Source: Gemmatimonadota bacterium | GTDB lineage: Bacteria > Gemmatimonadota > Gemmatimonadetes > Palauibacterales > Palauibacteraceae | Length of the DNA stretch: 64,000 bases | Assembly: GCA_022825725.1 (NCBI GenBank) | Contig: JAJDWE010000077.1 | Span: 1 to 64,000, forward strand | Reading direction: 5' to 3' | Part shown: one piece after another, positions 13,636 to 17,561 of the stretch | How the letters are laid out: every line of letters starts with the position of its first letter | How positions within the stretch are numbered: the first letter of the stretch is position 1 | Program-made: the position numbers and the translations under genes | Notes under the pieces: generated by a model | Told to the model about the DNA's origin: nothing | The model's input: only the letters and a program-made list of their open reading frames with translations | Database searches by the model: none

Positions 13636-14484
13636 ATGGCATCCGACACGATTCTCGAAGAGATCCTCGCGGCGAAGCGTGAAGAGGTCGCGCGCCTCCA
13701 GCTGTTCCGGAGCGCGATTCGCGCGCAGGCCGATGAAGCCGCGTCCCCACGTGGTTTCGAGGCGTCTCTGCGCCGACCCGGGGAAGTCGCCGTCGTCGCG
13801 GAGTTCAAGCGCCGCTCACCTTCCGCCGGCGACATCAACCCGTACGCCCAGGCGGCGGGCGTGGCGAGCGTGTACGCCGCCGGGGGGGCGGCCGCGATTT
13901 CGGTCCTCACCGATGAACGCTACTTCGGCGGCTCGCTGGACGATCTGAGGTCGGCGAAGGACGCCGTGGGGGTCCCCGTCCTCCGCAAGGATTTTACGCT
14001 GGATCCCGTCCAGCTGTACGAGGCGCGGGCCGCCGGCGCGGACGCGGTCCTGCTCATCGTCCGCGCGCTCGGCGACGCCCGGCTGCGCGAACTGCTCGAA
14101 CTCTCGACCGAACTCGGCCTCGGGGCGCTCGTGGAGGCGCACGACGAGGAGGAGCTGGGGCGGGCGATCGAAGCCGGGGCCCGGATCGTCGGCGTGAACG
14201 CGCGGGATCTCGCGACCTTCGAGGTGGACCTCGAGCGCTCGCTGAGCCTGATCGAGGAGCTTCCGGCCGATGTCGTGGCCGTGGCGGAGAGCGGGATCCG
14301 GTCCGCGGAGGACGCGGCGGCGGCGGGCTCCGCGGGGGCCGACGCCGTTCTGGTCGGCGGCTGGCTGATGGCGGGCGATCCGGCGGCGGGGGTCGAGGCG
14401 CTCGTCGGCCACCCCCGGCGGCCACGGAGCGGCCGGATGCAGTCGGTCGGCGCGGACGCCGCGGTCGAAGACGGAGCCCCATGA
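13636..14484 (+). CDS. trpC: Indole-3-glycerol phosphate synthase
   Basis: 282 aa TIM barrel closing the indole ring in tryptophan synthesis. Conserved active-site stretches include VVAEFKRRSPSAGDI (catalytic Lys), VPVLRKDFTLDPVQLYEARA, GVNARDLATFEVD and VAVAESGIRS. ATG 13636 (MASDTILEEILAAKREEV) matches family N-termini; the frame stays open upstream but that part is not family-like. The C-terminal ~25 residues are a short tail. The stop overlaps trpF (ATGA). Confidence 0.97.
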   Translation: MASDTILEEILAAKREEVARLQLFRSAIRAQADEAASPRGFEASLRRPGEVAVVAEFKRRSPSAGDINPYAQAAGVASVYAAGGAAAISVLTDERYFGGSLDDLRSAKDAVGVPVLRKDFTLDPVQLYEARAAGADAVLLIVRALGDARLRELLELSTELGLGALVEAHDEEELGRAIEAGARIVGVNARDLATFEVDLERSLSLIEELPADVVAVAESGIRSAEDAAAAGSAGADAVLVGGWLMAGDPAAGVEALVGHPRRPRSGRMQSVGADAAVEDGAP

Positions 14485-15110
14485 GCCGGGTCGGAGTGAA
14501 GATCTGCGGTCTCCGGGAGCCGCGGCACGCGACCGCGACGTCTCGCGCCGGAGCGGACTACGTGGGCGTCGTGTTCGCCGGCCGCGTGAGGGAGGTCACG
14601 GCCGAGGAAGCGGCCGCAGTCGTGGGGGCGCTCGAGGGCGGCACGCGCGCCGTGGGGGTGTTCCTCGACGCGGAACCGGCGGAGATCCTCCGCAAACGGG
14701 ACGTCGCGGGGTTCCACGTCGCCCAGCTCGCCGGCGAGGAGCCGCCCGAAGCCTGTGATCGCCTGCGGGCGGAGGGGATGGATGTGTGGAAGGGCCTCCG
14801 GCCCACGTCGAGCGACGCTCTGGTCCGGGGGTGGGACGAGTACCGGGAAGCGGCGGATGCGATCATCGTCGAGGGGTTCTCGCCGCGAGGACCCGGAGGC
14901 ACCGGGACCGCCTTCCCGTACGAGTGGCTGTCGGAGCTGGCGCGGAACGGGTGTGCGCTCGCGCTCGCGGGCGGGCTGAAGGCGGCGAACGTGGCGCGGG
15001 CGATCCGCGACGTGCGTCCCGACATCGTCGATGTCTCCTCGGGCGTCGAGCGGGCCCCGGGGGAGAAGTCGATCGACCTCATCCTCGAATTCCTCGCCGA
15101 GGCGAAATGA
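14481..15110 (+). CDS. trpF: Phosphoribosylanthranilate isomerase
   Basis: 209 aa. Isomerises phosphoribosylanthranilate to CdRP. The family signature VKICGLRE near the N-terminus contains the catalytic Cys, and the second catalytic Asp corresponds to the VDVSSGVE region that also binds phosphate. ATG 14481 and the stop at 15110 each overlap neighbouring trp genes by four bases, so trpC, trpF and trpB are translated as a coupled unit. Confidence 0.96.
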
Positions 15111-16327
15111 GCAGCCCGGCCCCCGGCTGGTTCGGCGACTTCGGCGGGCAGTTCGTGCCCGAGACGCTGATCCCGGCGCTCGACGAACTCACCGCGGCCT
15201 GGGCCGAGGCCCGCGACGACCCTGCCTTCCGGGAGGCCCTCGAGGCCAGCCTCGCGCACTACGTGGGACGGCCGACGCCGCTCTACCGGGCGCCGCGCCT
15301 GGGGGCGGATCTCGGGCTCGAGCTGTGGCTGAAGCGCGAGGACCTCAACCACACGGGCGCCCACAAGATCAACAACACGATCGGCCAGGCGCTGCTCGCG
15401 AAGCGCATGAACAAGGCCCGCATCATCGCGGAGACCGGCGCGGGCCAGCACGGCGTGGCGACGGCCACCGCCTGCGCGGCGCTCGACTTCGAGTGCGCCG
15501 TCTACATGGGCGAGGAGGACATGCGCCGGCAGGCGCTCAACGTCGAGCGCATGGAGATGCTGGGGGCCGAGGTCATCCCGGTCTCGAGCGGGAGCCGGAC
15601 GCTCAAGGACGCGACGAACGAGGCGATCCGCGACTGGGTCACGAACGTGGACACGACGCATTACATCATCGGCTCCGTCGTGGGCCCCGCGCCCTATCCG
15701 GAACTCGTCCGCGACTTTCAGCGCGTCATCGGCGACGAGACGGTTCGGCAACTCGTGGGATGGGGCGTGCAGCCGGACGCCGTCTTCGCCTGCGTCGGCG
15801 GCGGCTCCAACGCGATCGGCATCTTCACCCCCTTCATCGAGCGCAACCGCGAGGTGCCGGCGGAGGCGCGCGTCGCCCTCGTCGGCGTGGAGGCGGCGGG
15901 GCACGGCGTGGAGACCGGCCGACACTCCGCCTCGCTCACGGCCGGCGAGCCCGGGGTGCTTCACGGCAACTACAGCTACCTGCTCCAGGACGAGGACGGC
16001 CAGGTGATTCCCGCCCATTCCGTGTCCGCCGGACTCGACTATCCCGGCGTCGGCCCGGAACACTCGTGGCTCAAGGAGACGGGACAGGTCCGCTACGAGT
16101 CGGTGACGGACGAGGAGGCCCTCGCCGCCTTCCGGGACCTCTGCCGGCTCGAGGGGCTGATCCCCGCGCTCGAGAGCGCCCACGCGCTGGCGGGGCTGCG
16201 GCGGGAGGCCGCGCGCTGGGAGGGGAGCCGCGTCGTCATCTGTCTCAGCGGGCGGGGCGACAAGGATGTGGAGGAAGTCGCCCGCATCCAGGCGGCCGAC
16301 GGCGACCCCGGCTCGGACGGGCGCTGA
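15107..16327 (+). CDS. trpB: Tryptophan synthase beta chain
   Basis: 406 aa PLP enzyme joining indole and serine. Lys87 in HTGAHKINN carries PLP and falls at the same number as in Salmonella Trp[23 protein letters not shown] and the C-terminal SGRGDKD are standard. Coupled to trpF by ATGA. Its partner trpA is not adjacent but about 5.9 kb downstream; the next gene, two bases after the stop, is the UGA-containing AhpD-like gene. Confidence 0.97.
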
Positions 16328-16329
16328 CC

Positions 16330-16875
16330 GTGGCCTTCATCGACTACCCGGATCCGGCGGGGATCCCCGAGGAGGACCGCGTCGCGGACGACGACAACAT
16401 CATCCGCATTCACGGCGTCCACAACCGCGTCATCCGGCTCCACTACGATCTCTACCGCGAACTCATGTACGGCCCGGGTCCCCTTTCCCGGATTCAGAGG
16501 GAGATGATCGCGGTCGTCGTGTCCGGGCTCAACGCCTGCCGCTACTGAATTGTCCATCACGGAGAGGGTCTCCGTCGCCTGCTCGAGGTCGCCGACGCCA
16601 GCGCTTCCGATGAGGAGAACGAACGCCTCATCGCCGCCCTCGCGACGGACCACGCGACGGCCGAACTGGACGAGGCCGACCGGGCGATGCTCGACTATGC
16701 CGCGCGGCTGACGCTCGCGCCCGGCGCGGAGCACGCAGCCGCGGTCGACGAGCTGAAGGCGCACGGCTTCGATGATCGCGCGATCCACGATATCTGCGCG
16801 GTCACCGCCTACTATGCGTTCGTGAACCGGATCGCCGATGGACTCGGCGTCGAACTCGAAGACGAAGGAGGCTGA
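16330..16875 (+). CDS. Probable selenoprotein: AhpD/carboxymuconolactone-decarboxylase-like peroxidase-related enzyme with in-frame UGA (Sec73)
   Basis: Read from GTG 16330, the frame is interrupted by one TGA at 16546-16548 and then continues to a normal stop at 16875, with clear family homology on both sides. Before it: SRIQREMIAVVVSGLNACRY. After it: IVHHGEGLRRLL and, at the end, YAFVNRIADGLGVELE, typical of the peroxidase-related AhpD-like family. TGA occupies the second position of the redox CxxC, giving Cys70-x-x-[UGA]73-x-x-x-His77. Glu58 lies 12 residues before Cys70, as Glu118 and Cys130 do in mycobacterial AhpD. A 7-bp hairpin starts 11 bases after the UGA. The simplest reading is selenocysteine; a nonsense mutation or a TGC/TGA sequencing error is the alternative. 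It would act as a thiol/selenol peroxidase or reductase. It follows trpB by two bases. Confidence 0.8.
16559..16575 (+). promoter_or_regulatory. Candidate bacterial SECIS hairpin
   Basis: ACGGAGA (16559-16565) pairs perfectly with TCTCCGT (16569-16575), leaving loop GGG (or AGGGT if the last pair opens). The loop is centred 19 bases after the UGA, and bacterial SECIS elements place a G-containing apical loop about that far downstream. The local GGGUCU resembles the AGGUCU loop of E. coli fdhF. SelB binding is inferred. Confidence 0.6.
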
Positions 16876-16880
16876 CGGAA

Positions 16881-17561
16881 GTGGCCATGCTCCCGCCGAC
16901 ACCGCCGCAGCGCCGACCGGGCGTCCCGTCCGTGCCGGCGAATCTCGACCATCTGCTCCTGGGGACCGCCGACCTCGAGAAAGGGGTGGCGTGGGTCGCC
17001 GACCGGCTCGGCGTCGAGGCCGCGTTCGGCGGGCGCCACGCGAACCTCGGCACCGCGAATCACCTCCTCTCGCTCGGGGGCGACGTCTATCTGGAGATTC
17101 TCGGTCCGGATCCCGAAGCACCTCCCCGGGACGAGCCGCTTCCGTTCGGGATCGAGGAACTCGCCGAACCCCGCCTCGTCACGTGGGCGGCCCGCGGGAC
17201 CGACCTCGAGGCGCTCGTCGCGCGTGCGTCGAGCCGCGGCGTGCCGCTCGGACCCGTACGGCCCGGCTCCCGGCTCCGGCCGGACGGCACCGAACTGAGT
17301 TGGGAAATCACGGCCTTCACGACCGTTCTCCACGATGGTCTCGTACCTTTCTTCATCGACTGGGGAACGACGCCGCACCCGGCCCGCGCCACGCCGGCGG
17401 GCGGGCGGCTGATCTCGTTCCGGGCCGAACACCCGGACCCCGCCGCGGTACGATCCACCCTCGAGTCGCTGGACCTGGCGCTCGAAGTGGACGAGGGGCC
17501 GGAGCCCGCGCTCGTCGCGGGAATCGTCACCCCGGGCGGCGACGAAGTGGATTTACGATAA
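16881..17561 (+). CDS. VOC-superfamily (glyoxalase-like domain) protein
   Basis: 226 aa. The first half (LDHLLLGTADLEKGVAWVAD, GRHANLGTANHLLSL, YLEILGP) is the glyoxalase_3-like version of the vicinal-oxygen-chelate fold, and the second half repeats the fold more weakly. No substrate can be assigned. GTG 16881 has AAGGAGG about 10 bases upstream, while an ATG at 16887 is the alternative. It lies 5 bp after the AhpD-like gene and 13 bp before the binding-protein gene, so it is probably cotranscribed with both. Confidence 0.8.
   Translation: MAMLPPTPPQRRPGVPSVPANLDHLLLGTADLEKGVAWVADRLGVEAAFGGRHANLGTANHLLSLGGDVYLEILGPDPEAPPRDEPLPFGIEELAEPRLVTWAARGTDLEALVARASSRGVPLGPVRPGSRLRPDGTELSWEITAFTTVLHDGLVPFFIDWGTTPHPARATPAGGRLISFRAEHPDPAAVRSTLESLDLALEVDEGPEPALVAGIVTPGGDEVDLR

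Follow-up and report, generated by a model that had tools for sequence, protein, structure and literature searches.

A Predicted AhpD-Like Selenoprotein with a CxxU Motif Encoded directly behind trpB in a Gemmatimonadota Bacterium

Results

The Locus and Its Neighborhood

The window, that is, the whole stretch of 64,000 nucleotides analyzed here, which probably belongs to a member of Candidatus Palauibacter (Gemmatimonadota), carries a gene with the features of an AhpD-like selenoprotein in a run of trp genes (Table 1). The gene consists of one frame of 181 codons that contains a sole internal TGA, at residue 73, and is closed by a terminal TGA at positions 16873-16875.

Table 1. Coordinates of the predicted selenoprotein gene, its key codons, and its neighbors in the window
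Feature	Coordinates	Strand	Remarks
trpF	14481..15110	+	same gene run
trpB	15107..16327	+	2 nt upstream of the predicted selenoprotein gene
Predicted AhpD-like selenoprotein gene (TIGR01926, peroxidase-related)	16330..16875	+	GTG start, 181 residues, predicted Sec at 73, TGA stop
Glu58 codon, putative proton-relay Glu, equivalent of Glu118 in M. tuberculosis AhpD	16501..16503	+	invariant column
Cys70 codon (TGC), opens the CxxU motif	16537..16539	+	
Predicted Sec codon UGA, residue 73, at the second Cys position of CxxC	16546..16548	+	
His77 codon, putative proton-relay His, equivalent of His137 in M. tuberculosis AhpD	16558..16560	+	
Bacterial-SECIS-like hairpin	16559..16575	+	ACGGAGA/TCTCCGT 7-bp stem, GGG loop, -9.0 kcal/mol alone
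Glyoxalase_3/VOC-like gene	16881..17561	+	directly downstream; conserved alongside the selenoprotein gene through most of the genus

A preliminary description of this locus had placed the gene directly after trpB. That placement stands, and the order trpC-trpF-trpB-selenoprotein-VOC is retained through most of the genus, with the trpB linkage persisting to 61% identity of the selenoprotein. The description needs refinement in that the linkage is genus-specific: around homologues outside the genus, no trp gene was found within the flank of 1.5-4 kb examined, and the ORFs around 11 such loci include no constant neighbor of the selenoprotein gene. The trpB linkage is real and is confined to the genus Candidatus Palauibacter. 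Given the gap of only two nucleotides, the gene is probably co-expressed with trpB.

Family Membership and Predicted Fold

The translated product matches the TIGR01926 profile with 113 bits (cut-off 81.8, E 1.3e-32) over residues 22-178, a stretch that spans the TGA, and it displays the residue pattern of that family, a CxxU motif with a Glu upstream and a His downstream. A Pfam CMD match above cut-off (residues 42-114) likewise crosses the TGA. Two related profiles are matched below their cut-offs: TIGR00777, which describes AhpD sensu stricto, reaches 11.8 bits against 191.95, in a weak match (E 0.15) of residues 53-83 onto model positions 113-143, and NF041238, the profile of an AhpD-related (seleno)protein, reaches 50.2 bits against 175. 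The alignments with the crystal structure chains 2pfx, 3c1l, and 6k40 begin at about residue 16-23 and end at residue 172-179, with a Cys in place of the TGA residue in all three alignments inspected; the crystal structures 2oyo and 2prr also align across most of the length of the protein.

The redox center and proton relay of M. tuberculosis AhpD comprise Glu118, Cys130, His132, Cys133, and His137, and the corresponding pattern in PA0269 is Glu36, Cys48, Tyr50, Cys51, and His55 (PMC3141380). Residues E58, C70, Y72, U73, and H77 of the present protein stand at a constant offset of 60 from those of the M. tuberculosis enzyme, and their spacing is also that of PA0269. The earlier claims that one frame bears family similarity on both sides of the TGA, that this TGA falls on the second Cys of CxxC, and that Glu58, Cys70, and His77 are correctly spaced are all confirmed by these alignments. 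An AlphaFold model, calculated from an input of nine sequences, is all-helical, with a mean pLDDT of 78 and unsure N and C termini, and superimposes on 2pfx, 3c1l, and 6k40 with TM scores of 0.70-0.73. In this model, U73 lies within helix 71-88, which follows the Glu58-bearing helix 54-67. The model therefore predicts an all-helical fold of the CMD/AhpD type.

Coding Constraint around the UGA Codon

In the genus comparison, changes at third codon positions make up 202 of 291 before the TGA and 323 of 578 after it. This excess on both sides indicates that the region beyond the UGA is translated and under selection, if less strictly than the region ahead of it. Homologues carry either UGA or Cys at position 73, and other in-frame stops occur in them at residues 179-180 only, which is the natural C terminus; the additional TAA at residue 180 of one genus homologue (G034), for example, is its natural end. 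The preliminary description had suggested inspecting residue 73 and looking for further disruptions in relatives, and both checks came out in favor of a selenoprotein.

Selenocysteine Machinery and Genetic Code

The genome (3.49 Mb, 97.7% complete) contains selA, selB, selC, and selD, the set expected of a bacterium that makes selenoproteins, in agreement with the earlier proposal that the organism uses Sec. The tRNA-Sec gene is found at C4:157673-157764 with 79.4 bits and is confirmed by ARAGORN, which reads a UCA anticodon; selB (368 bits) is also on C4, and selA (502 bits) is on C59. The selD gene (G000:C2:15298-16224 (-), L051, 372 bits) contains one in-frame TGA and reads GAGUACK there, the known Sec position of SelD, and so is itself a selenoprotein gene. 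TGA also terminates both trpB and the selenoprotein gene, so UGA has not been reassigned genome-wide.

The same genome encodes a second AhpD-like selenoprotein gene, L048 (G000:C79:28752-29195 (-), TIGR01926 123 bits), with the motif CFYUTEAHGEDLR and, behind the TGA, a GGAG...CTCC hairpin of its own. A gene of this type is present in most of the genus.

Distribution of Sec and Cys Forms

Homologues are present in 27 of 35 family genomes, and TGA occupies the residue-73 codon in every close homologue within the genus (16 genomes, 63-99% identity), a recurrence that excludes chance. Across the phylum sample, 127 of 298 genomes gave a match, and nearly all of those listed have a single TGA. Beyond Gemmatimonadota, a scan of named GTDB genomes gave UGA forms in Acidobacteriota, Calditrichota, Krumholzibacteriota, Planctomycetota, and Chloroflexota, which brings the number of phyla to at least six, and in one MAG labelled Alphaproteobacteria. 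The named genomes also yielded Cys forms, from phyla that include Bacteroidota, Spirochaetota, and Pseudomonadota, and 27 distinct Cys forms have Cys at residue 73, aligned to the UGA. A plasmid search returned homologues of less than 60% identity only.

The distribution of the forms follows that of the Sec trait. Among 100 TGA-form genomes of the phylum sample, taken from the listed matches with the TGA position read individually for part of them, 92 pass the strict threshold for tRNA-Sec, and the remaining 8 have selA above cut-off. All 8 Cys-only genomes in the sample are without selA. We used selA as the criterion for the trait because some Cys-only genomes score about 47-50 bits with the tRNA-Sec model, close to the Rfam cut-off of 47 and not far from the 42 bits that non-Sec tRNAs reach elsewhere in the organism's own genome. 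With tRNA-Sec above cut-off in 215 of 298 phylum genomes, the Sec trait is common in Gemmatimonadota.

In a tree of 85 rows, the distribution of Sec and Cys requires two changes. One Cys form (L057 of genome G167, and L106), with the sequence CRYCLLHHGG, is nested among Sec forms, has a decayed hairpin, and comes from a genome without selA; judged from these features, it is a natural Sec-to-Cys replacement, as expected with loss of the trait. A divergent homologue, L043 (G005, 1501-1914), has GGAPU in place of CxxU, an apparent Sec without a partner Cys.

A Candidate SECIS Hairpin

The published model of the bacterial SECIS calls for a loop of 3-9 nt, a stem of 4-16 bp, a G in the first two loop positions, a distance of 16-37 nt from the UGA, and a minimum free energy of at most -7.5 kcal/mol (PMC13188914). 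The hairpin in the window begins 10 nt past the UGA, with 17 nt from the UGA to the loop, overlaps the codons of residues 77-82, and agrees with this model in loop, stem, G, distance, and energy. Compared with shuffled sequences, it is not unusually stable (z of -1.2 for 27 nt and +0.2 for 40 nt), and the 61 nt around the UGA fold to a different minimum with no excess stability. As folding energy alone is not significant, the argument for a SECIS rests on how Sec forms compare with Cys forms and on the codons chosen.

Of 63 distinct Sec forms, 53 preserve all five core pairs, which none of the 27 Cys forms does; among forms with the same HH residues, the counts are 51 of 53 versus 0 of 27. In a dozen sequences, the innermost pair is C-G instead of A-U. 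Arg82 is encoded by CGT in 49 of 63 Sec forms, compared with 13 of 275 Arg codons (5%) in nine window genes, and Gly78 is encoded by GGC in 0 of 53, compared with 179 of 351 Gly codons (51%) in those genes. Binomial p-values on codon choice overstate independence, since the sequences are related; the effect spans several phyla. By these counts, the stem is built from codons that the GC-rich genome avoids.

About 10 more distant Sec forms of the HAHDLR type (L037-L042 and L083-L085; CxYUxxxxHAHD) have kept the UGA and lack this exact stem, and a SECIS in these genes must differ in place or shape.

Discussion

Selenocysteine Incorporation and Its Alternatives

Incorporation of Sec at residue 73 by the SelB/hairpin mechanism is almost certain, an estimate that concerns incorporation and leaves the enzymatic role aside, and the assignment is as secure as sequence allows. 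In the proposed mechanism, SelB and Sec-tRNA(UCA) would read the UGA of residue 73 as selenocysteine, and the hairpin, which is located inside the coding region just past the UGA, would serve as the bacterial SECIS and is presumably what SelB binds.

A sequencing or assembly error, or a fresh nonsense mutation that makes a pseudogene, typically looks like this gene, with one in-frame stop and no other damage. Such an origin is scarcely credible here. Independent assemblies, which stand in for read support, show the TGA at this codon in 16 genomes of the genus, and it is found there in other phyla too; the gene is free of other disruptions, and its changes fall mainly at third codon positions both before and after the TGA, the C-terminal half being only mildly relaxed. 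The frame would also be open if UGA were read throughout the genome as, for example, Trp or Gly. The likelihood of such a code is negligible: trpB and the selenoprotein gene end in TGA, the Sec machinery is complete, and the homologue residue aligned to the UGA is Cys rather than Trp or Gly. The UGA could, finally, be a true stop with low, regulatory, or accidental read-through, making the N-terminal 72-residue fragment the main product. Sec insertion is rarely fully efficient, and the modest energy of the hairpin points the same way, yet residue 73, His77, and the C-terminal helices, all at or after the UGA, are conserved, and in the Cys forms, which read on past this point, the UGA and the hairpin are absent together. 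We regard a true stop as highly improbable.

Possible Roles of the Protein

In a selenoprotein of this kind, the redox center would be C70-x-x-U73 with a Glu58/His77 proton relay, and the selenolate would act as a fast nucleophile of low pKa. By analogy, the protein quite likely serves as a selenol/thiol peroxidase or as a disulfide-exchange adaptor of a peroxiredoxin system; reduction of hydroperoxide or AhpC is suggested by homology to solved relatives of which the closest are mostly uncharacterized. In one case, a Sec form from Pyrinomonadaceae (Acidobacteriota; L109), the gene is directly preceded by a Pyr_redox/Lpd-type reductase gene, and an AhpC/TSA gene follows downstream on the opposite strand, a neighborhood that fits an AhpD-type electron chain.

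Chemistry other than peroxide reduction, for instance reductive dehalogenation or a different thiol reaction on the CMD fold like that of the debrominase Bmp8, would be compatible with the Sec mechanism and competes only with the role just described. Bmp8 (6ohi and 6ohj) is among the fold matches, with a TM of about 0.6 and E of about 0.01, and is a weak sequence match (E 0.68). Halogenated metabolites abound in sponges and corals, from which several genus relatives were obtained. Nonetheless, peroxidase-related proteins match far more closely, the residues of the AhpD relay are intact, and the L109 neighborhood fits a peroxiredoxin system, which makes such chemistry unlikely here. A literature search on Bmp8 returned unrelated papers only.

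The position within the trp operon may reflect just a lineage-specific insertion that borrowed the operon's promoter. It is very unlikely that the Palauibacter protein was recruited to the operon for a task coupled to indole or tryptophan metabolism; were it so, the protein might, for example, protect tryptophan synthase or reduce oxidized or halogenated indole, a role that would be new for selenoproteins with the CMD/AhpD fold.

Significance

As the preliminary description stated, AhpD-like selenoproteins with CxxU exist in metagenomes. The family already figures in published catalogues of bacterial selenoproteins: its members were reported in 2005 (Zhang et al., PMC1088965) and again in 2008 (PMC2398784), and TIGR01926 is catalogued as an AhpD-like selenoprotein family in a 2026 review (PMC13188914). 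With the family catalogued since 2005, the gene is a new example of modest novelty. Searches of titles and abstracts found neither Sec use in Gemmatimonadota nor a purified AhpD-type selenoprotein, an absence that is not proof. As far as the searched literature shows, the wide use of Sec among Gemmatimonadota, the link to trp genes, and the comparison between Sec forms and Cys forms are new. The gene is one more solid case of Sec use for this phylum, from a group that is mostly sponge- and coral-associated, and it allows Sec forms to be compared cleanly with natural Cys forms, among them the nested L057/L106 form. Ordinary annotation would truncate such genes at the UGA.

Comparison with Known Systems

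The AhpD-like selenoproteins of TIGR01926 (PMC1088965) belong to the same NCBIfam family and share the CxxU motif and a bacterial SECIS just downstream. The present gene differs from the catalogued members in its Palauibacter lineage (Gemmatimonadota), its HHGEGLRR-type active-site helix, and its conserved position behind trpB. The CFYUT protein of NF041238 ("hypothetical protein 1", Sargasso Sea) has a related CMD domain and CxxU, but the match is below threshold and covers only the C-terminal part, positions 217-338, of a model of 357 positions. The best matches in both sequence and fold, 2pfx, 3c1l, and 6k40, are Cys forms and mostly uncharacterized. PA0269, which shares the Glu, Cys, Tyr, Cys, His pattern, is also a Cys form, and its reduction of H2O2 is weak (PMC3141380). 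M. tuberculosis AhpD has its redox-center and relay residues at constant spacing with those of the selenoprotein, but contains Cys rather than Sec, is a weak overall fold match, and carries the motif elsewhere in the chain (PMC3141380).
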